DNA of 16,102 bases from Sulfurimonas sp. Lineage in GTDB: Bacteria; Campylobacterota; Campylobacteria; Campylobacterales; Sulfurimonadaceae. Both the position numbers and the translations under genes were made by a program. Location: assembly GCA_030646745.1 (NCBI GenBank), contig JAUSKV010000045.1, positions 1-16,102 on the forward strand, in the 5' to 3' direction. The notes below the pieces were generated by a model that was not told the DNA's origin, searched no databases, and was given only the letters and a program-made list of their open reading frames with translations. Below are positions 1,671-14,305 of the stretch, piece by piece. The first letter of the stretch is position 1, and each line of letters starts with the position of its first letter.

Positions 1671-1889
1671 TCACTTTGAAAGATTTTTAATATTCTCTGT
1701 TGGGAGAGGATTGGATACGTCTGGAAGAGTCGGAGCATTTATTGCATTCTCATTAGCAACTTGTGAAGATACGACTGCCGATGCAGAAGAGTCGCCCGCA
1801 ACAGCGCTCGCATGAGTTGTATTCTTCTCATCTCCACAACCTTGAATCAAACAAGATACAGCAATTAAACTTATAATAATACTTTTCAT
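1671..1889 (-). CDS. Small predicted lipoprotein, unknown function
   Basis: The 72-residue product begins MKSIIISLIAVSCLIQGCGDE. It has a basic start, a hydrophobic core and a cysteine at position 18 in the context IQGC, which resembles a lipobox although Gln at -2 is not the usual residue. After the cysteine the chain is low in complexity, rich in Ala, Ser, Asn and Pro, with no recognisable domain. A good AAAGGTG ribosome site precedes the ATG at 1889, and TATAAT-like boxes lie upstream. It sits between the nuo operon and the divergent surface-protein operon. I do not recognise the family. The mature protein would be about 55 residues, anchored to the inner or outer membrane. Confidence 0.7.
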   Translation of the reverse strand: MKSIIISLIAVSCLIQGCGDEKNTTHASAVAGDSSASAVVSSQVANENAINAPTLPDVSNPLPTENIKNLSK

Positions 1890-2072: not shown

Positions 2073-3491
2073 ATGAAATTACTATTTTTTTTACTATCAA
2101 TGCATGTATTTCTAATAGCAAGTAGTCACACAACCAAAGGCGTTAGCTATGAAGTACCTTCAAAAGGTTCTTTAAAAAAACAACATGTTGTTGAGACAAT
2201 AGCTGCAAATGAGACGGCACAGGTAATGCCGAAAGAGGATCAAAAAAGTAGCTACAACGAAGCGAAACTGCTTTTTGAAAAAAAAGAGTATCAACAGGCT
2301 TATGATGCATTTTATAAATTATTTGAAAAAAATCTACAAGATCCAAATATAAACTTTTATCTTGGCAGAAGTGCTTACATGCTCAAAGATTTTGAACTTG
2401 CGATAACTGCATATGAGAGAGTTTTGATGATTGACCCAAATGCAACCAGAAGCAAGCTCGAAATTGCAAAGTGCTACTTTGAGCTAAAAGAGTATAAAAA
2501 AGCACAAAACATTTTTTTAGAAACGATTAAAGAGAATATGCCTGTAAATGTGAAACAAAATATCGAAATGTATTTAAGTGCAATCAACTCTAAAATACAA
2601 ACGAACTTTTTCAGTGGTTCTGCTGTTTTAGGAATTAATTATGATACAAACATAAACAATCGCGCAAATGATGATACATTTACAATCTCTGGAATCATTG
2701 ACAGCATCACAAACCAACCTATTAAAGCTGCAAATTCCACAAAAGATGAAGCCGGATTTGCACATCAAGAGGCAATATCGCTCAATCACATGTATAATTT
2801 TGCCGAAGATGTCAATATAAAAAACGATTTTGTTCTATTCTCAAAATCACTTATCAAAGATCATACTAAAGATATCGGACTTATTCAGTACTCTCCTGCA
2901 CTTTCTGTTGTGTATAACGGCAAGATACTGGTTGATTATGCCCTTCTTTTTGACCAGATATGGCTGAGTACGAAACCCTTGCTAAGCGACTATGGTATCT
3001 ATCCAAAATTAAAATATATGTATTCTACCTCTACAATTTTAGGAACCACTTTTAAATACCAAAAAAAGTTTCTTGATACAAGTATTTCTGAGATTGAAGC
3101 ATTGGAATTTACTCTTAACCGCATCTATTCCAAAGATATTATGTTTACCTTTTATACTCAACTCTATACCGAAAAAAAACTCTCTAGTAATTTAACAAAC
3201 ATAAACCAAGATATGTTAAATATTGCGCTTTCAACCTCGTACAAATACATGCCGACTTTAACTTTTACACCAAAAATACAGTGGTATGACAAACAATACA
3301 AGGAAGAGGACCCGTTTTATCTAAAGAAGCAACAAGATAATGAGTACCAGTTTTTATTTAACACCACCTATTCTTATAGCAAAAGTATGCTTATGAGCTT
3401 AGATTACATGTACACAGATCACATCTCAAATATTCCATCCTGGGAATTTAACAAACATGCGGTAACTGCTAATGTTATCCTTCTATTTTAA
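2073..3491 (+). CDS. TPR plus outer-membrane beta-barrel protein, Slam/DUF560-like translocon
   Basis: The 472-residue product starts with a signal peptide (MKLLFFLLSMHVFLIASS). Residues about 60-170 form TPR-like helical repeats (EAKLLFEKKEYQQAYDAF, then AITAYERVLMIDPNA, then CYFELKEYKKAQNIF). From about residue 178 to the end is a roughly 295-residue region of alternating polar and aromatic strands that opens with VLGINYDTNINNRAN and ends in VILLF, as expected for an outer-membrane barrel with a terminal aromatic. This order and these sizes match Slam (DUF560) proteins, which move substrates with TbpB-like domains across the outer membrane. The next gene encodes such a domain, which supports the call. 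It is the first gene of the operon, and its stop overlaps the ribosome site of the following gene. The TPR-barrel architecture is clear; the Slam assignment is by pattern and context, not by search. Confidence 0.72.
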   Translation: MKLLFFLLSMHVFLIASSHTTKGVSYEVPSKGSLKKQHVVETIAANETAQVMPKEDQKSSYNEAKLLFEKKEYQQAYDAFYKLFEKNLQDPNINFYLGRSAYMLKDFELAITAYERVLMIDPNATRSKLEIAKCYFELKEYKKAQNIFLETIKENMPVNVKQNIEMYLSAINSKIQTNFFSGSAVLGINYDTNINNRANDDTFTISGIIDSITNQPIKAANSTKDEAGFAHQEAISLNHMYNFAEDVNIKNDFVLFSKSLIKDHTKDIGLIQYSPALSVVYNGKILVDYALLFDQIWLSTKPLLSDYGIYPKLKYMYSTSTILGTTFKYQKKFLDTSISEIEALEFTLNRIYSKDIMFTFYTQLYTEKKLSSNLTNINQDMLNIALSTSYKYMPTLTFTPKIQWYDKQYKEEDPFYLKKQQDNEYQFLFNTTYSYSKSMLMSLDYMYTDHISNIPSWEFNKHAVTANVILLF

Positions 3492-3502
3492 GGGGCTTGA
3501 TT

Positions 3503-5383
3503 ATGAAAATTTTATTACTGCTACTGCTACTCACCGCTGCCGCCTTTGCTAATATAGGCGAAATTTCCTCTATGAAAGGCTCTTGCAGTGTAACAAGAGC
3601 GAGTAGTTCTATAGATGCAACTATTGGTTTAAAATTAGAAGAGAAAGATATTTTAAAAACCAAAGAAGATGCAAAACTGCAAATCATTTTTAAAGATGGA
3701 ACTGTAGTTACCGTAGGCAAGTCATCCACATTTGATATAGCTGCCTATGTTTATGATGAAGCGAAATCTGATAAATCTAAGGTAGATTTTGGATTTTTAG
3801 AGGGTTCCTTCAAATCGGTAACCGGTAAAATCGGAAAAATTGCACCGGATAAATTTAACTTAAAAACAAAAACAGCAACCATAGGTATTCGAGGAACAAC
3901 CATTGTCGGGAATCAAGAGGCTGTCGCATGTACGCAGGGAGAGATTGCTATTAGTTCTAACGGAGTTACACAGGTAGTACCTGCGGGAATGTTCTCTAAA
4001 ACACCGCCGAATGCACCACCGACACCTCCTCAACCTTATGTAGCGGGAAGTATAGGCGATGTGGAAGATACTCCTGCCCCTGAAAAAAAAGAGAAAGAGA
4101 AAGAAAAAGAGAAAGAGAAAGAGAAAAAAGAAGAAGATAAAAAAAGTGACAAAAAAGAAGAAGATAAAAAGAGTGACAAAGTAGAGAAATCTACTGCCAA
4201 TGGAGAAAAAAGCGATAAACAAGGAAGCGCGTCAAATTCAAAAGAGGAAACCCCTACACAATCAAATGCAGCAGCTGAGCAATCACCTTCTAAACAAGAA
4301 AATAGTTCTAACGAAACACCGAATATTCAACCTCAAGTACCTGCCGCTATGGATGACGGTGCAGGTTCAAGCATAGATTCGAGGGCTTTGAGCAATGTTG
4401 ACACTCCTCTCCCTAGTATAAACAATAGTGCCATGCCAGAGCAAATAGTAATACAGCCGAATGTTCAAAATATTGTGCCGGATATTCAAAATATTATAGC
4501 AGTAGTTCAAGCTTCGGTTGACACTGAAGTGAAAGTAGTAGCAGAAACAGAATCTGTAGCGGTTGTTGTCACTCCGCCTGATGTCACTCCGCCTGTCGTG
4601 ACTCCGCCTGTCGTGACTCCGCCTGTCGTGGCTCCGCCTGTCGTGACTCCGCCTGTCGTGACTCCACCTGTCGTGACTCCGCCTGTCGTGACTCCGCCTG
4701 TCGTGACTCCGCCTGTCGTGACTCTGCCTGTTGTTGAGGCGCCGCCCGTCGTAACTCAGCCTGCAGCAGATACTCCAACTGCAGCCGAAGTGCAAGCCTC
4801 AGCAGATGCACTAGCTGCTACGAATGCCATAAATACAGTAACAGCATCCACTACTTTAAATGATATAGCAAATGCCTCAGCAGGCTTAACTCAAGAGAGT
4901 AGTTATTATGATGACTATTTAGATTATGGTTATTGGAATAGTGGCGATACAGCAGTCAGTACATATATTAGCGGAGTTGTAACATCAAGTGATTTTGTGG
5001 ATCAAATGATAAGAAATGATTCAACTGCAACATATAGCGGTGGAATTAGCTCAATCGTAACAAACAATGGAATCCAAACAGCTTCTACCGGAACTGTTAC
5101 TTTAGATTTCAATTTTGCAAATCAAAATTTTACAGGAAATGTAAATGTGACAGAGGAAAATTTTAAAGCTACTGTTGCAGGAAATGTTCATAAGTATGGT
5201 TTTGATGCTACGAGTGTAACAAAAGCAACAGATAGCACGGCAAATATAACAGGTGGAAACTTAAACGGTCAGTTTTACGGAACAAATGCCGAAGCAGCGG
5301 GTGGCAAGTTTAATCTAAACAGCAGTAATGTCGGCAGTGTGAGTGGTATTTTTGGGACTACCAAAGTCATCCAAAATCCATAA
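3503..5383 (+). CDS. Exported FecR-domain protein with C-terminal TbpB-like barrel domain, putative Slam substrate
   Basis: The 626-residue product has a signal peptide cleaved after about residue 17 (AFA) and no lipobox cysteine, so it should be a free exported protein. Residues about 45-140 are a FecR domain, with FKDGTVVTVGKSSTFDI and the hallmark TKTATIGIRGTTIVG. A Lys/Glu-rich segment (194-226) and a disordered Ser/Asn/Gln region follow, then eleven five-residue TPPVV-type repeats (357-411). Residues about 466-620 resemble the TbpB-type beta-barrel domain: DDYLDYGYW, then ATYSGG, TGTVTLDFNFANQNFTG, GQFYGTNAEAAGGKFNL and GIFGTTK. ATG 3503 is chosen over TTG 3497 because AAGGGG at 3490-3495 is correctly spaced from it. 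The FecR call is firm; the TbpB-like call rests on motif recognition. Confidence 0.85.
   Translation: MKILLLLLLLTAAAFANIGEISSMKGSCSVTRASSSIDATIGLKLEEKDILKTKEDAKLQIIFKDGTVVTVGKSSTFDIAAYVYDEAKSDKSKVDFGFLEGSFKSVTGKIGKIAPDKFNLKTKTATIGIRGTTIVGNQEAVACTQGEIAISSNGVTQVVPAGMFSKTPPNAPPTPPQPYVAGSIGDVEDTPAPEKKEKEKEKEKEKEKKEEDKKSDKKEEDKKSDKVEKSTANGEKSDKQGSASNSKEETPTQSNAAAEQSPSKQENSSNETPNIQPQVPAAMDDGAGSSIDSRALSNVDTPLPSINNSAMPEQIVIQPNVQNIVPDIQNIIAVVQASVDTEVKVVAETESVAVVVTPPDVTPPVVTPPVVTPPVVAPPVVTPPVVTPPVVTPPVVTPPVVTPPVVTLPVVEAPPVVTQPAADTPTAAEVQASADALAATNAINTVTASTTLNDIANASAGLTQESSYYDDYLDYGYWNSGDTAVSTYISGVVTSSDFVDQMIRNDSTATYSGGISSIVTNNGIQTASTGTVTLDFNFANQNFTGNVNVTEENFKATVAGNVHKYGFDATSVTKATDSTANITGGNLNGQFYGTNAEAAGGKFNLNSSNVGSVSGIFGTTKVIQNP
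4082..4180 (+). repeat. Lys/Glu-rich low-complexity segment inside the FecR-domain gene
   Basis: A purine-only stretch with repeated GAGAAA units encodes alternating Glu and Lys and then two KKEEDKKSD units (residues 194-226). It probably forms a charged linker or single alpha-helix between the FecR domain and the disordered region. Confidence 0.85.
4571..4735 (+). repeat. Eleven 15-base tandem repeats encoding TPPVV
   Basis: Eleven in-frame copies of ACTCCGCCTGTCGTG run without gaps from 4571 to 4735. The first encodes TPPDV, the fifth APPVV and the last TLPVV; the rest encode TPPVV, with one synonymous change (CCA) in the seventh. A degenerate APPVV unit follows. Near identity at DNA level points to recent expansion by slippage or recombination. 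The product is a stiff proline-rich stalk. Confidence 0.95.
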
Positions 5384-5405: not shown

Positions 5406-8400
5406 ATGAGAAAAATATTATTTATTTGGATTCTGTTTTTTACCATGTTTGCAACAGTTATACATGCCGATATTACAACAGGGCTTGAAGCGCACTATGA
5501 GTTTGAAGGCAATGTAAATGACAGTACAGTTAACGAACTAAATGCTACAGCATCTACAACACCACGATATGCTTCTGGAAAAATGGGTCAAGCGATTGAA
5601 TTCATCAACGACTACACCCTCGCTACCCCACTAGATGAGCTTACATATTTTAATGGCTCATGGACAAAAGCCCTATGGGTAAAACTTAATTCTGTTCAAA
5701 GTGGTGATGGAAACTTATTGAGCTCATCTAACTACGCTATGTGGATGCCTATAAGTACACATAAACTCGAGTCATATCCTTTTGGAATAACTGGCACAAC
5801 AAATCTCAACGACACCCAATGGCATCATTTGGCTATCACATACGATAATACGTCTCAATTGATGCAAGTGATTGTAGATGGGGTAGTTGAAAATAACGGA
5901 ACTATCACCAAGCCAACACTTTCTTCAAGTAATTTCCTTGGGATCAATCAGCATGGAACTGGCGGGGTTAATGGTATCGTTGGTTTGATGGATGATGCTC
6001 GTATTTATAATCGTGCTTTAACCTCTATAGATATAGCTGAACTCTATAACTATACACCACCAATACTCACACTTAAAGCGCATGGTGGAGCACTGCAGAT
6101 AAGTAATAGCGTTCTTGATACAAGTGGATTTTCAGCTGAAACAAATCAGACTGTTACAAATTTTACTGTTGAGTGGTGGATGAATCCATCTGCACATTTC
6201 AGCACCGGAAACACAATCGGATATGGTTGGGGTAGCTTTTTGTTTCATGAGGCTGGAAGCGGTGATCTCTATGTCGGGATAAATGGCGATAGTGCCTTAA
6301 ATAGACTTACCCCTACCGATGGTCTTGGCGCGGGAACGCTTGAACTCAATAAATGGCAACATTTTGCATTTAGTTTTGACGCAAGCAACGGAACAGGCAC
6401 ACTCTACAAAAACGGTCTTTCCCTTGCTTCCAAAAGCGGTATGTCTTCTCCTTCAATCTTTGGAGACTTTGCTGCCGGGAAAGCATATACGAGTGTATTG
6501 AGTCAACAGTTTATGCTTGACGATGTTCGAGTTTGGAATATCACTAGAACCGGAGCCCAAATTAAAGCTTCAATGAACTATCAGCTAGACGGAAATGAAA
6601 CAGGACTTGTCGCATACTACAACTTTGACGAGCGTGTCGGCACTACTGTCAAAGACAGAACTGCACATGGTTATGACGGGAGTATTGATACTTCCAAAGT
6701 AACACGACTTAACTTTTTAGGGGATGGATTAAGTTTTAGCGGCACAAATAGCGGTGTGCAAACAACAGCATCGCTTAATTGCTCAACCTATCCAAATTTC
6801 TCGCTTGGGGCGTGGATAAAACCAATAAGTTCTCAAACCGGTTGGCATGCTATCTTTACACAATCAAATTCACTTGGTGTCGATTTAGAGAATGGAACTC
6901 TAGGAAATGCAACTCTCGCAATAAACCAATGGTCGTATGTGGCTCGAAGTCAAGAGGGTTCAACCGTCCGATATTATGTAAATGGAAATTTGGCTTTAGA
7001 GGCGGGTTCGCAATCATGCAGCGGAAATAATGATCCAATCTTTATTGGTACCCATTCAGATTTATCTGGCAGTTTTGATGGTGATATTGCCGAGGCTTCA
7101 ATCTGGACAAAAGCCCTCACACAATCGGAAATCCTAAAGACAATGTCTTCGCCAATTTTAAGCGATACTGCACTCGTTGGCTACTGGCCGTTCAATGAAG
7201 GGGCAGGAACAACAGCATTCGATAAATCAGCCAGTGCAAATAACGGAACTATTGTAAATGCTACTTGGACAGATACAGCTCCAACTCTCTATGGAAATTA
7301 TATCTACACATTATCAGGCATCCCTATTTTAAATAAACTTGTTGTTGAAAACAATACATCCACTCCAACCTACAGCTATAACGGAAATGTTCCTTCGACT
7401 ATTGCAGATTTTAACGGCACAACAGGTGTGTTTACATACTACTCACAAATAGAAGCAACCGAAACTTTAGACATAAATGCAAGTGATGGCGGAGTAAGTT
7501 TACAGAGTTTGTTTCATGTTATCAGCTATGCGGGTCCTATTGATTTAACACTCAATATTACAAATGTCTCTCTTTTGGAGCACAATATAACGAATATTCA
7601 AATAATTGCTCAAGACGGAACCAGTGAAAGCTTGCTTATTCCAGATATAGCAAGCGGAAATATTAGTGATGGTAATAATACCTATACCGTACCAATCTAT
7701 CATCCGGATAATAACTTCTCAATAAGAGTTGACTTAAATGACAGCACTCAGTGGTGGGTGAATTTTAATGATGGAAAACTCTACAAAACAAATAATGCAA
7801 GCTCTGATTTTAAAACTCTCATTGGTTCAGCAACCAATACATTGAGTGTTGATTTTATTAATGCAAACTTTATTAGTGCTGCACCGACTCTCTCCCATAT
7901 ATATGATCGCTTTAGAACACCATCCTCTGCACAAAGTGACTTTAGCATATCTTTTGATGTAAACGACAGCGATACGGCAACTCTAACGCTCACTGTCAGT
8001 GCGGACAATAATAACACTCTAAATACAGCCAATTTCTCGGTAAATAGCTCCATAACAGCAAATCAAACTCAATCAATTAATATAATTCCGGTAAGTGCAA
8101 CTTCTGTAGGAGATACGAAAGTAACAATCACTCTAAACGATGGAACCACTACAACACAGCAAAGTTTCAATGTAAATATAAGCCATGAATTTGAGATTAT
8201 TACCACTAAAGAAGCAAATATAAGTGGCATAGATTTTAATTTAGACTACAATGGAACTTTATATGCGCTTAGCTCACACCAAGAAGAGAATAATCTAACA
8301 GTTGAATATGAAAAACTAAAAGTAGTAAACTCACTATTTGACAGTAATCTCACAGTGATTAAAGATGTCAATGGAACTGCAACTGTAACAACTAAAACAA

Positions 8401-9560
8401 GCACCATGCCGACACCGTTTCAGTATGCGAATAGTAATTTAGGCAGTGCAGACTTATCTGGTGCATATAGCAACTATGGGACACCTTTTGAATTTACATT
8501 TATAGATGAAACCTCAACTGGAACAAAAGTATATGTAACCTATCCAGTTGAACGACTAGAAATAGACGCAAACAACATGAGAGACCAAAACGGCTCTTTT
8601 TTTACATCTATCAATAGTTTTATGGGTGCGACGGTTCAAGGCAGTGCAACACAGGGGATAAGAAACCATGCACGCAATAAGTTGCTGGTGTTCAATCAAA
8701 ATGAAGTAGCAAATAGTAGCGGAATCCTAATTGAACTGGATGAGAACGGAACTGTATTGACAGCGAATGCAGGCACATGGATAAAACAAACAGTTTCCTC
8801 ACAAGAAGTACTTTTAATAAATCCAACTGCTGCTGTTGTAACGGCAAGTGGTTACGATACAGATATGGCATTTGTCCTTGATAACGGTATAGTAAAAAGT
8901 GCAACCTACAAAGCGAGCGGCGACATATACAGCTACATACTTTTAGATAAAGCAGCCAAAGATGCACTTTATCATTCTATTTCGCCCAATCCAAAAATAG
9001 CTACTCCGCTCAATAATGGCTACACATATATCTCTTTGCCATCATCAAAAACACTTTGTGATGTAGATGTACAAATGGATGGTAACTATAGCTTTTGTGA
9101 TAAAAACAATACATTAGAGTCAGTTTTTGGAGCAAATAGCCATGTTGAGCGTGTATTTAAATTTGGACGAGAGTGGATGTATTGGGATAATAATTCAACA
9201 GCAAACCCCGCCTACTCTATGCAAAAGCTTTCAACAATCAACCCTCTTGAAGGGATTATGGTAAAAACATCCGCAGCAACAAGTATAAGTGTACCATTTG
9301 ATGAAGATAGTGAAAGTGTGAACGACTACACAAACTTGTTTGCAACAGGTTGGACACTTATGTCTAACAATAAAGCTCAGACAGCCGGAGAGATTTCAAC
9401 GGCACTTACAGCAGAAGGTAAAGTGTTAGTTTACATATTAGTTTTGAGAGACAATACATGGCATGTGTATGCACCAACAAATAACAGCACGGTAAGTTCA
9501 TCAATACCTAGACTGAGTAGTGTAAATAGATATGAAAGTTATTGGGTTAATTTTAGATAA
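5406..9560 (+). CDS. Large exported protein with three LamG-like modules, putative surface adhesin
   Basis: The 1384-residue product starts with a signal peptide cleaved near IHA-D22. Three concanavalin A/LamG-like modules follow at about residues 24-216, 222-430 and 434-620. Typical pieces are DTQWHHLAITYDN with DDARIYNRAL in the first, LNKWQHFAFSFD with LDDVRVWN in the second, and INQWSYVARS with AEASIWTKALT in the third. A motif of the type LVGYWPFNEGAGTT..D recurs at 26, 400 and 589. Residues about 640-930 look like Ig or cadherin-like beta domains rich in Asn, Ser and Thr. The C-terminus (1203-1384) is a pair of related units without a known anchor: no autotransporter barrel, RTX repeats or sorting motif. 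A ribosome site AAAGGAAG precedes the ATG and it lies 22 bases after the FecR-domain gene. Binding of carbohydrate or matrix is inferred from LamG. Confidence 0.8.
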   Translation: MRKILFIWILFFTMFATVIHADITTGLEAHYEFEGNVNDSTVNELNATASTTPRYASGKMGQAIEFINDYTLATPLDELTYFNGSWTKALWVKLNSVQSGDGNLLSSSNYAMWMPISTHKLESYPFGITGTTNLNDTQWHHLAITYDNTSQLMQVIVDGVVENNGTITKPTLSSSNFLGINQHGTGGVNGIVGLMDDARIYNRALTSIDIAELYNYTPPILTLKAHGGALQISNSVLDTSGFSAETNQTVTNFTVEWWMNPSAHFSTGNTIGYGWGSFLFHEAGSGDLYVGINGDSALNRLTPTDGLGAGTLELNKWQHFAFSFDASNGTGTLYKNGLSLASKSGMSSPSIFGDFAAGKAYTSVLSQQFMLDDVRVWNITRTGAQIKASMNYQLDGNETGLVAYYNFDERVGTTVKDRTAHGYDGSIDTSKVTRLNFLGDGLSFSGTNSGVQTTASLNCSTYPNFSLGAWIKPISSQTGWHAIFTQSNSLGVDLENGTLGNATLAINQWSYVARSQEGSTVRYYVNGNLALEAGSQSCSGNNDPIFIGTHSDLSGSFDGDIAEASIWTKALTQSEILKTMSSPILSDTALVGYWPFNEGAGTTAFDKSASANNGTIVNATWTDTAPTLYGNYIYTLSGIPILNKLVVENNTSTPTYSYNGNVPSTIADFNGTTGVFTYYSQIEATETLDINASDGGVSLQSLFHVISYAGPIDLTLNITNVSLLEHNITNIQIIAQDGTSESLLIPDIASGNISDGNNTYTVPIYHPDNNFSIRVDLNDSTQWWVNFNDGKLYKTNNASSDFKTLIGSATNTLSVDFINANFISAAPTLSHIYDRFRTPSSAQSDFSISFDVNDSDTATLTLTVSADNNNTLNTANFSVNSSITANQTQSINIIPVSATSVGDTKVTITLNDGTTTTQQSFNVNISHEFEIITTKEANISGIDFNLDYNGTLYALSSHQEENNLTVEYEKLKVVNSLFDSNLTVIKDVNGTATVTTKTSTMPTPFQYANSNLGSADLSGAYSNYGTPFEFTFIDETSTGTKVYVTYPVERLEIDANNMRDQNGSFFTSINSFMGATVQGSATQGIRNHARNKLLVFNQNEVANSSGILIELDENGTVLTANAGTWIKQTVSSQEVLLINPTAAVVTASGYDTDMAFVLDNGIVKSATYKASGDIYSYILLDKAAKDALYHSISPNPKIATPLNNGYTYISLPSSKTLCDVDVQMDGNYSFCDKNNTLESVFGANSHVERVFKFGREWMYWDNNSTANPAYSMQKLSTINPLEGIMVKTSAATSISVPFDEDSESVNDYTNLFATGWTLMSNNKAQTAGEISTALTAEGKVLVYILVLRDNTWHVYAPTNNSTVSSSIPRLSSVNRYESYWVNFR

Positions 9561-9590
9561 TCTAAAACAATTTTAATTGGAGTTATAGAG

Positions 9591-10349
9591 ATGAAAATAC
9601 TAGGTGCATTCGGTTCTAAAACAAAGAATTCACAACTGAGTGCCTATTTGCTTGATGAAAAAACTGTCATTGATGCCGGAAACTTAATCCAAAGTCTTGG
9701 CAGAGATTTTTTAAAACTAGACAATATACTTATTACCCATGCACATTTTGATCATATTGCTGATTTGCCTACGGCTATTGATACTTTTTACTCAAAACTG
9801 GAAAAACCTGTAAATGTTTTTGCAACACAAGAGGTAATAGATATATTAAAAGAAAATATATTTAATAACAAAGTATGGCCCGATTTCTCAAAGATACCGC
9901 TCTCGAACAACAATGGAAATACGATAGTTTTTCATGCTTTGGAATTTTTTAAAGATTATACTATAGGAAATTTCAGGATTAAACCCTATCCAAATTTCCA
10001 TACTTTCGGCAGTTGCGGCTATGTTATAAATGATGCTATGGTATTTACTTCGGATACATTTCTTTGCTACCACACATGGGATTTTTTAAATAATAATAAA
10101 AATCTTAAACAGCTGATTATTGAAGTCTCTTTTCCATCCTCATTTAATCGCCTTGCGGTTTTAAGTAAACATCTCACACCTCTACTTTTAAAGGATGAGT
10201 TAAAAGCACTTCAAAGAGATGACATAAAAATATATATTAATCACATGAAATATGAGTATCGGGATGCTATAATAAACGAATTGAAAGAGATAGATTTATA
10301 CGACAGAGTTACGATTTTAAATGATGATTCAGAAATTGAGATAGGATAG
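9591..10349 (+). CDS. Class II 3',5'-cyclic-nucleotide phosphodiesterase (metallo-beta-lactamase fold)
   Basis: The 252-residue product has the metallo-beta-lactamase metal motif HAHFDH (H50, H52, D54, H55), with likely further ligands at H137, D155 (FTSDT) and H218 (INHMK). The segment from 178 to 206, EVSFPSSFNRLAVLSKHLTP followed by LLLKDELKAL, matches the signature of the class II cyclic-nucleotide phosphodiesterase family (yeast Pde1, Vibrio CpdP) rather than generic hydrolases. The N-terminus with LLDEKTVIDAG also fits. It would hydrolyse cAMP or cGMP. No signal peptide is seen, so it should act in the cytoplasm, unlike periplasmic CpdP. GGAG precedes the ATG 30 bases after the LamG gene, and the next gene starts 3 bases after its stop. 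Its pairing with the class III cyclase nearby supports a cyclic-nucleotide role. Confidence 0.82.
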   Translation: MKILGAFGSKTKNSQLSAYLLDEKTVIDAGNLIQSLGRDFLKLDNILITHAHFDHIADLPTAIDTFYSKLEKPVNVFATQEVIDILKENIFNNKVWPDFSKIPLSNNNGNTIVFHALEFFKDYTIGNFRIKPYPNFHTFGSCGYVINDAMVFTSDTFLCYHTWDFLNNNKNLKQLIIEVSFPSSFNRLAVLSKHLTPLLLKDELKALQRDDIKIYINHMKYEYRDAIINELKEIDLYDRVTILNDDSEIEIG

Positions 10350-12079: not shown

Positions 12080-14305
12080 TCACCCTTTTGTGGTATGGAC
12101 AAAAACACCATTAAAATTTTGAGGCGGAAACTCTATATAGTGTTCACATCGCTCTATATAGATATCGTAAATTTTTGTATTACTCTTATCTTCCCATCCA
12201 TTAAGCTCTCTAAAAATTGCTAAAGCCTCTTCAAACTTTTCTGACTTGTAAAGGTCTATCGCTTGATGATACAGACGAAGCTCCTCTACAAGTCTCTCTT
12301 TGCTTGAGTAAAAGAGTGGCTCCTCCCCCTCCCTATCAAAATCATGAATCTGCCAAATCTCAAGAGGCTCTATTTTCCCCTTAACAGTTACCAAATCTAA
12401 AAAACGATAGATATATTTTCCAATTAATTTATTTTTTGTGAAATTAGAAATATTAAGCCTAGAGTTATAATATTTACACAAAGATTCTAATCTTGCACCG
12501 ACATTTATCGGGTCACCGATAACTGTATAATCTGAGCGTATTGTTGAACCCATCTCCCCGACAATTGCCACTCCACTATTGAGTCCAATACCGATATCTA
12601 CGATTGGTACCTTAGCCTTATCTGCCATTTTTGTTACATTCTCAAATTCTGGATTATTTCTCAACGCTTCATTAAGAGATTTAAGCTTATGAAGTTGTCT
12701 AAGACTCGCACTTACAGCTCTATCAGCATGATTTTCAACAGAAACAGGTGCATTCCAATAAGCCATAATTGCATCACCTATATATTTATCAACTGTGCCC
12801 CTCTCCTCTATTATTATGGATGTCATAGGCTCCATAATTTCGTTCATAAATTTAATAAGCGATTTAGGATTTCCCATAGCTTCAGAAATATTTGTAAAAC
12901 CTCTAACATCTGAGAAAAAGACTGTTATCTCTTTTTCAGCACCATCAAGAGTATTTGAATCAGGATTTTTTAGGATATCTTCCATTACATCCGCGCTCAC
13001 CTTTGAAGCAAATTTTCCTTTTATCATATTTTTTTGCTTTGTTTCAAGAAAATAATTCAAAACCATAGATATTATATATATCGACAAAGACAAAATAACT
13101 ATATTAAAGAGAATATTTAGAGCAATCCCTTGATAAAAAAGCATATAATAATTGAATGATAGTTGTAATAAAACAACAAGAATAAGAACGAGGAGTGTCA
13201 TAACGGCACTCAGCAAACCAAACAAAATTGACAATATCATTCCGACTAAAAAAATCTGAGCAATATCTGCAGCAATGACCCAAGAAGGCTTCGATATAAA
13301 ATCTCCTGCAATTATGTTATCTATTGCATTTGCATGCACTTCAACCCCCGGATAGACACTATCAAACGGCATAGCTCTTAAATCCATTAATCCCGCGGCA
13401 GAAGTTCCGATAAGAACAAATTTTCCCTCTATATCTTCAGGTTTGAAATTTTTACTATAAATATCTGAAGCTGAAAGATAGCGATAAGAGAATGCAGGAC
13501 CGCGAAAATTAACCAACATTCTCCCAAAGCTATCTGTTGGAATTTCCACAGAACCGGAGCGTACACTTTGAACTCCAATATCTTCTGCATAATTTACATA
13601 AACTTTATCTGCTTGTGTCATGATACGAACCATCTCCATCGCAAGTGAAGGATAAACTGCTCCATCATATTTCATAACCAAAGGTACACTACGAACTAAG
13701 CCATCACTATCAGGAAAGGTATTAAAAAAACCACTAGAGTAAGCATTCTCCTGAGCAATAGGAACATTTAAAATTGCGCGTTTCGCTTCAGCAAGAAAAT
13801 CTCTTTGGGGCTTATGCTTTTCAATATAAATTGCCGGGATACTTGGAGCACCCTCTGTTTTAATTCCATCATCATTAAGTACAAATATATACCCAAGGAT
13901 TGTAGGTGTTGATGCAATGGTTTTGGCTAATATCTCCTCATAGTCTTCAATCCCCTCTGTACTATGACCCAACTCTTTTAACACCTTAACAGGGTTTGAA
14001 TTATCATATTCAGCAAATACAATATCCAGACCAATAACTCCTGCACCGGCATCTGTAAGATTTTGAAGAATTTTTGCAATATCTTTACGCTTCCAAGGCC
14101 ATTGTCCTAACTCTTTTAAACTTTTTTCATCAATATCTACAATTACAATATCTTCAGATGGCTTTACCACACCCCTAACTAAAAAGATATTATCTCTAAG
14201 TTGATTGTCTAATGACATAAACTTTTCAGGCATTACTATATAAGCGATACTTGTTAATAAAGATACAAGAAACCCTGCCATAAGATACATTTTAATATTT
14301 TTCAT
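12080..14305 (-). CDS. CHASE2 sensor class III adenylate cyclase
   Basis: The 741-residue protein has an N-terminal membrane segment (8-27), a periplasmic CHASE2 domain (about 35-340, with VIVDIDEKSLKELGQWPWKR, GVIGLDIVFAE, VLIGTSAAGLMDLRAMPFD and PGVEVHANAIDNI), three membrane segments (about 342-420) and a cytoplasmic class III cyclase domain (about 455-660). The metal aspartates are D466 (FFSDVRGF) and D511 (YIGDAIMAYW). K507 and T594 (DYTVIGD) occupy the base-selecting positions in the Lys/Thr form typical of adenylate cyclases, and N601 and R605 (NVGARLE) the transition-state positions, so it should be active. The C-terminus (676-740) is the helical tail usual for CHASE2 cyclases, ending FNGVFVHTTKG. 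The start has only a weak GGTGG site; M6 is an alternative. CHASE2 cyclases often neighbour FecR-domain genes, as here. Confidence 0.93.
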   Translation of the reverse strand: MKNIKMYLMAGFLVSLLTSIAYIVMPEKFMSLDNQLRDNIFLVRGVVKPSEDIVIVDIDEKSLKELGQWPWKRKDIAKILQNLTDAGAGVIGLDIVFAEYDNSNPVKVLKELGHSTEGIEDYEEILAKTIASTPTILGYIFVLNDDGIKTEGAPSIPAIYIEKHKPQRDFLAEAKRAILNVPIAQENAYSSGFFNTFPDSDGLVRSVPLVMKYDGAVYPSLAMEMVRIMTQADKVYVNYAEDIGVQSVRSGSVEIPTDSFGRMLVNFRGPAFSYRYLSASDIYSKNFKPEDIEGKFVLIGTSAAGLMDLRAMPFDSVYPGVEVHANAIDNIIAGDFISKPSWVIAADIAQIFLVGMILSILFGLLSAVMTLLVLILVVLLQLSFNYYMLFYQGIALNILFNIVILSLSIYIISMVLNYFLETKQKNMIKGKFASKVSADVMEDILKNPDSNTLDGAEKEITVFFSDVRGFTNISEAMGNPKSLIKFMNEIMEPMTSIIIEERGTVDKYIGDAIMAYWNAPVSVENHADRAVSASLRQLHKLKSLNEALRNNPEFENVTKMADKAKVPIVDIGIGLNSGVAIVGEMGSTIRSDYTVIGDPINVGARLESLCKYYNSRLNISNFTKNKLIGKYIYRFLDLVTVKGKIEPLEIWQIHDFDREGEEPLFYSSKERLVEELRLYHQAIDLYKSEKFEEALAIFRELNGWEDKSNTKIYDIYIERCEHYIEFPPQNFNGVFVHTTKG

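Follow-up and report, generated by a model that had tools for sequence, protein, structure and literature searches.

The outer membrane proteins of the type XI secretion system (T11SS), Slam among them, share an architecture of a TPR domain and a 14-strand barrel, and soluble cargoes with a single TbpBBD are described as the rule in subcluster 1B of the family (PMC8406197). When Slam exports TbpB, the C-terminal barrel of the cargo is the first part to be exposed (PMC9100927, citing earlier work). From a separate field, a Campylobacterota gene cluster for a CHASE2 cyclase, a phosphodiesterase, a FecR protein and a TPR protein has been proposed as one pathway (PMC9239204). The signal sensed by CHASE2 domains was stated as not known in 2016 (PMC5192318); in Sinorhizobium meliloti both NsrA and CyaK are required for signal perception (PMC7529298). 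Here we describe a stretch of 16,102 nucleotides of Sulfurimonas sp. (contig JAUSKV010000045.1; in the following the window), in which the gene of a Slam-like barrel protein directly precedes the gene of a FecR protein with a C-terminal TbpB-type domain. From the location of this pair inside a cluster for cyclic AMP (cAMP) sensing it would seem that a machine for export was converted to an antenna which reports outside signals inward.

The barrel gene extends from an ATG at 2073 to a stop codon at 3491 and encodes 472 amino acids with matches to Pfam TPR families. The AlphaFold2 model (24 sequences, mean predicted local distance difference test (pLDDT) of 88.8) contains seven helices at residues 54–175 and a barrel at 178–471, for which a preliminary description of the locus had given 178–472, and VLGINYDTNINN opens the barrel as described there. 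A hand count on the DSSP line, in which two short strands were omitted and one split strand was joined, gave 14 long strands. The predicted model has the T11SS outer membrane architecture, a TPR domain followed by a 14-strand barrel. The expected match to DUF560 was not obtained: SlipAM/DUF560 (PF04575) has no match to the window protein even at an E-value of 1, only its relatives match, and the protein is therefore termed Slam-like and not a member of the family. TPR_Slam (PF24575) scores 27.9 bits on the window protein, below the cut-off of 35.2; in an alignment of homologs (A1, 24 rows) it is found at E ≤ 0.01 in 18 rows. At the same limit PF04575 matches 4 rows of A1 and, in a further alignment of 27 barrel rows (A3), 12 rows (best E 1.7e-14), the window row being present in both alignments and not among the matching ones. 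One full-length homolog (P0019; E 2.5e-67, 36 % identity to the window protein) reaches 33.4 bits with PF04575 at a cut-off of 22. Across 119 related genomes PF04575 gave 20 matches, 17 of them above the cut-off, and all 20 coincide with barrels found by the A3 profile; 19 have a FecR match at a distance of up to 5 kb, and next to the remaining one is a frame at a contig end whose FecR score, 17.7 bits, stays below the threshold.

Assignment of the barrel to a known solved porin family was rejected, as the fold matches listed are the generic 14-strand porins CymA and OmpG at 9–12 % identity. A profile search of the PDB sequences with the barrel returned FhuE only (E 0.0019). A Slam structure is absent among the fold matches listed, which is not evidence that none exists. 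A barrel protein with an N-terminal extension of about 600 residues and DUF11 matches was observed at 6598–9696 of locus L110, where it adjoins FecR.

The second protein of the pair possesses a FecR domain (PF04773, 39.7 bits, cut-off 24) at residues 50–146 and a TbpB_B_D domain (PF01298, 34.7 bits, cut-off 26) at residues 507–621. The latter includes FYGTNAEAAGGKF and GIFGTTK, the two motifs from which a TbpB-like C-terminus had been proposed, and structure prediction yields the proposed eight-stranded barrel, at residues 508–617, with the fold of T11SS cargoes. The preliminary description was also correct in the coordinates and motifs of the pair and in the overlap of the barrel gene with the ribosome site of its neighbour, the TAA of the barrel gene (3489–3491) overlapping the AAGGGG which precedes the ATG at 3503. 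The charged stretch and the proline stalk are present as well, and both are built on tandem repeats (an AAAGAG unit at 4088–4126, and a 15-bp unit at 4571–4763 in 12.7 copies). The N-terminus is hydrophobic by inspection, and a motif scan over the 119 genomes found a lipobox-like motif in none of 45 FecR proteins. For the NCBIfam equivalog slam_lipo, a model built for lipoproteins, the FecR-TbpB protein scores 31.9 bits against the 80 required. With the C-terminal domain as query 13 proteins were retrieved, 12 of which carry FecR and TbpB_B_D in the precomputed Pfam list and the 13th TbpB_B_D only. A seeming fusion of FecR-TbpB to a giant protein (L040 in G009, 3703 aa) was discarded, because the frame crosses N and the real protein (P0035) has 460 aa. 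A protein of 465 aa (P0039) with RCC1 repeats ends in a TbpB_B_D domain close to the Sulfurimonas type (39.3 bits), so that TbpB-tailed proteins are of at least two kinds.

Sequence or prediction gives the domains and folds, the gene coupling and, by inspection and motif scan, N-termini of signal type that lack a lipobox, and by this anatomy the Slam-like barrel and its TbpB-tailed partner are very likely a pair of the T11SS type. The barrel might instead be a receptor or plugged pore with the TbpB-type domain as periplasmic plug or ligand sensor, so that nothing crosses the membrane. This is unlikely in view of the tail, which has the fold of T11SS cargoes, and of the barrel, which groups with SlipAM relatives.

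The union of barrel and FecR is kept in the relatives examined. In the main sample of 50 barrels, one per locus, from the 119 genomes a FecR gene lies at most two open reading frames (ORFs) away in 45, in all 45 on the same strand. The gap has a median of 9 nt and is 50 nt or less in 44 of the 45 pairs; the barrel gene comes first in 40. The five other barrels comprise one beside an OmpA-TbpB protein (L037), one without such a partner (L076), two at contig ends (L078, L081) and one on a contig-end fragment with a FecR match of 17.7 bits (L082; cut-off 24). Conversely, 28 of the 31 PF01298 matches have a barrel of the window type at a distance of up to 6 kb; the exceptions are one match in G108 (L052) and two close to the end of a contig, in G087 (L045) and G078 (L055). 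Together with the 12 of 13 domain lists above, this speaks against a chance association. In a set of named genomes the barrel stands directly before the FecR gene in all 17 loci; the profile detects a TbpB-type tail in 15 of them, and a cyclase is in the stretch in 12 (L095 is counted although its frame crosses N); nine of these 17 stretches are also in the main sample, so the two sets are not independent. One of the 17, the gammaproteobacterium Hydrogenovibrio sp. JE_KL2, has barrel, FecR, barrel, FecR and CHASE2 cyclase in a row; one of the barrels was scanned with PF04575 (37.7 bits), and PF01298 (cut-off 26) scores the two tails at 27.3 and 24.3 bits, both being TbpB-type by profile. An even sample of the phylum contains the barrel in 63 of 397 genomes, and for at least 52 of 70 barrels a FecR match is listed no more than 5 kb away. 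Four of the 18 others were opened: three adjoin FecR and the fourth adjoins a contig-cut TbpB_B_D frame. Proteins of about 350 aa with TPR, beyond the reach of the barrel profile, occur beside FecR and near a CHASE2 cyclase (L084, 9329–10372; L086, 7783–8850) and are possibly a third kind of barrel partner.

Adenylate cyclases with a CHASE2 domain, overlooked in the preliminary description together with the cAMP phosphodiesterase, cluster around the pair and change its reading. Within 15 kb on the same contig such a cyclase accompanies 34 of the 50 barrels. CHASE2 is present in 41 of the 43 genomes with a barrel and in 22 of the 76 without (Fisher p 2.9e-13, uncorrected for kinship). The pair is probably tied to the CHASE2 cyclase in function. 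The window genome has two HTH_Crp_2 matches above the cut-off of 27 (39.8 and 34.4 bits), so that a reader of cAMP is possible; the weight of this is small since the family also matches all 14 control genomes. A FecR-CHASE2 cyclase fusion of 1088 aa (L095 = L114) was dismissed, as N lies inside a repeat.

The tails of the 45 neighbouring FecR proteins differ: 26 have PF01298 at E ≤ 0.001, seven have a diverged tail and 11 are tailless, while the contig of the last one (L068) ends within the gene. The seven proteins with diverged tails (L060, L069, L073, L074, L075, L077, L080; 368–434 aa) have no PF01298 match at E 0.1 and are recognised at E 1.2e-7 to 3.2e-20 by a tail profile which was built from 23 PF01298-positive tails and searched on 45 tails, circular for the 23 and not for the seven; the best tailless protein reaches E 0.049. 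Among the barrels with a tailless FecR are PF04575 matches above the cut-off, for example 38.2 bits in G059 and 34.7 bits in G030. A single clade (Shimodaira–Hasegawa-like approximate likelihood ratio test (SH-aLRT) 94) unites ten of the 11 and has a tailed barrel as its sister (88), and the tail label changes twice on the tree against a shuffled mean of 10.1, where the tree is quick and midpoint-rooted with some long branches (including L061 and L066) and the shuffling ignores kinship. A (D/T)RxxxY motif near the terminus, with at most one residue after it, was noticed in 7 of the 11 short FecR proteins (L062, L063, L064, L065, L071, L072, L079) and is perhaps a ligand for the TPR domain.

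These data bear on plain type XI secretion, in which the whole FecR-TbpB protein would be exported to the surface or medium and the cyclase genes would be neighbours under common control only. The anatomy of a T11SS pair is present, and the soluble single-TbpBBD form of the protein is usual for subcluster 1B cargoes (PMC8406197). However, the tailless FecR proteins retain the same kind of barrel and, in 8 of 11 loci, a cyclase in the examined stretch, which argues against plain secretion of FecR. FecR also lies beside CHASE2 where no barrel was found, a Sinorhizobium FecR is on one chain with TPR and barrel directly beside cyaK, and once exported FecR would be out of reach of CHASE2. We therefore regard plain secretion as improbable. 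The proposal of a non-lipidated FecR substrate stands as to the missing lipobox and is weakened as to the export of FecR as cargo, since the tail is undetectable in 11 of 45 loci; the alternative offered with it, a FecR domain held in the periplasm, fits the data better. The strongest argument is the persistence of the barrel-FecR union without the export domain, according to which FecR works in the periplasm and the tail is a tether or antenna.

A further locus is instructive in this respect. In L037 (3394–6329; G085:C44) a Pal-like lipoprotein with an OmpA domain (64–151) and a C-terminal TbpB_B_D domain (352–479) is encoded by a gene overlapping that of a Slam-like barrel, possibly forming a bridge from peptidoglycan to the surface. 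Peptidoglycan, the ligand of Pal-like OmpA domains, is periplasmic, which favours a periplasmic N-terminal domain for FecR too.

We propose, with a probability of roughly 0.55, that the Slam-type barrel and its cargo-like partner are the outward portion of a cAMP sensor that spans the envelope, with FecR in the periplasm and the tail in or through the barrel. The topology, the insertion and docking steps, the signal and the way in which the cyclase is controlled are inferred as follows. Sec would bring both proteins to the periplasm, and the barrel protein would insert in the outer membrane so that its TPR domain lies on the inside. The TbpB-type tail would dock in, or cross, the barrel and be displayed at the surface, and the long flexible linker would allow the FecR domain to remain periplasmic. 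As the C-terminal TbpB barrel is exposed first in Slam export (PMC9100927), a halt with the N-terminal domain inside would be natural. A signal from outside, received by the displayed domain or by the LamG protein of the following gene, might alter the contact of FecR with the periplasmic CHASE2 domain and thereby switch the cyclase; the class-II phosphodiesterase would reset cAMP, and CRP-type regulators would read it. If this is true, a widespread cAMP receptor would have as its outer half a barrel of Slam type together with a domain displayed at the surface, signalling would join nutrient capture and adhesion among the roles of T11SS, and T11SS-like pairs would extend into Campylobacterota. 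A further-reaching account can be given tentatively: a T11SS translocon and its cargo may have become a sensory receptor, with the export domain threaded to the surface and a periplasmic FecR gating the CHASE2 cyclase, as the main use of the Slam family in the sampled Campylobacterota, and in one clade the export domain may have been lost while the receptor was retained.

Several observations weigh against the sensor. There are 93 CHASE2 matches, some of them fragments; FecR occurs within 12 kb of 65 of them, whereas a barrel occurs within 15 kb of only 35, so that many FecR-CHASE2 pairs manage without a barrel of the window type. Barrel, FecR and TbpB domain are found together in 26 loci, 10 of which have no CHASE2 within 15 kb, seven of these 10 being on contigs shorter than 35 kb. 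Locus L098 has a cyclase and a barrel scoring like the tailed kind, yet a tailless FecR of 269 aa. In the window itself the cyclase is on the strand opposite to the pair, the barrel lacks the PF04575 match mentioned above, and the FecR domain was modelled poorly (pLDDT mostly below 50), likewise the linker. To our knowledge, moreover, known T11SS cargoes are exported whole.

The features of the window, which stems from a draft genome of 2.15 Mb in 390 contigs (74 % complete) whose nearest protein matches bear names that point to Sulfurimonas, are collected in Table 1. The first five of the six relevant genes are co-directional with short gaps and the cyclase gene faces them. In the nearest relative examined (L038 = L090, Campylobacterales bacterium LacPavin) all six point in one direction, and the window cyclase gene is inverted relative to it.

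Table 1 Features of the window around the barrel-FecR pair
Feature	Position	Strand	Basis
Slam-like protein: signal-type N-terminus, TPR domain (54–175), predicted 14-strand outer membrane barrel (178–471)	2073..3491	+	Pfam TPR families, AlphaFold2, relatives above PF04575 cut-off
FecR protein with C-terminal TbpB_B_D, 626 aa, signal-type N-terminus, no lipobox	3503..5383	+	Pfam, structure prediction, motif scan
FecR domain PF04773	3650..3940	+	Pfam
Lys/Glu-rich linker repeats	4084..4180	+	tandem repeats, translation
Proline stalk, 15-bp repeats (TPPVV)	4571..4763	+	tandem repeats
TbpB_B_D domain, predicted eight-strand barrel at residues 508–617	5021..5365	+	profile match, structure prediction
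1384-aa secreted-looking protein, three LamG stretches, possible surface partner	5406..9560	+	domain scan; relative directly after FecR in L032, L035, L038, L091
Class-II cAMP phosphodiesterase	9591..10349	+	PF02112 54.4 bits
GAF-HD-GYP protein; fused to class-II phosphodiesterase in L041	10353..12074	+	domain scan
CHASE2 adenylate/guanylate cyclase	12080..14305	-	PF05226 217 bits, PF00211 60 bits

The position of the LamG gene raises the question whether its product is the true cargo and the FecR-TbpB protein its adaptor. Besides the window a LamG protein follows FecR directly in L032, L035 (= L092), L038 (= L090) and L091; in the other loci examined it does not adjoin FecR (one ORF away in L059), and the window LamG protein has no TbpB_B_D match, which makes this explanation very improbable. 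In L041 (12274–14673) a class-II cAMP phosphodiesterase, GAF and HD-GYP, two genes in the window, are on one chain; this may join the turnover of cAMP and cyclic di-GMP. Between the nuo genes and the barrel gene an ORF of 72 aa with a lipobox (LIQGC; 1671–1889, minus strand) encodes a small lipoprotein. A sigma-70 scan was uninformative, with fewer sites than in shuffles (6 vs 11.6).

In comparison with the T11SS described so far (Slam, NilB and HrpB with TbpB or hemophilin-type cargo; PMC8406197, PMC12282271) the window likewise has a protein of TPR and 14-strand barrel beside one with a C-terminal eight-strand TbpB-type barrel. In contrast to the cargo N-termini reported there, which are host-interaction effectors, that of the window partner is FecR; unlike those pairs, the window pair lies in a cAMP cluster and its barrel is below the PF04575 threshold. 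The main texts of the two surveys contain no occurrence of Campylobacter, Sulfurimonas, epsilon or FecR, and FecR is not mentioned in the T11SS literature searched. All four components of the Campylobacterota cluster of CHASE2 cyclase, phosphodiesterase, FecR and TPR (PMC9239204) are present in the window, whose cluster is very probably the one already proposed there as one pathway; the main text of that paper does not contain the word Slam. The cluster is thus known, and a Slam-like barrel with a TbpB-tailed partner as its outer membrane pair was not found in the literature searched.

Two described systems outside the phylum resemble the window in design. In S. meliloti a gene that shares one base with the start of cyaK codes for 1190 aa with FecR (66–160), TPR (about 420–590) and a weak barrel match, and we take the product to be NsrA from its place next to cyaK. 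The length agrees with this, as the NsrA barrel is given as residues 600–1200 (PMC7529298). As in the window-type design, FecR, TPR and an outer membrane barrel are encoded directly upstream of a CHASE2 cyclase, in NsrA on one chain and in the window system on two. The Sinorhizobium protein was rejected as a homolog of the window barrel: hhalign found no detectable homology of NsrA to the window-type barrel and TPR parts (probability 0.1 and 0.4 percent), and a domain scan found no TbpB-type domain in it; the parallel is therefore one of design only. In Burkholderia a LysM-FecR protein and a CHASE2 histidine kinase (PMC5192318) likewise place FecR beside a CHASE2 sensor, with a kinase output and with LysM in place of the outer membrane partner.

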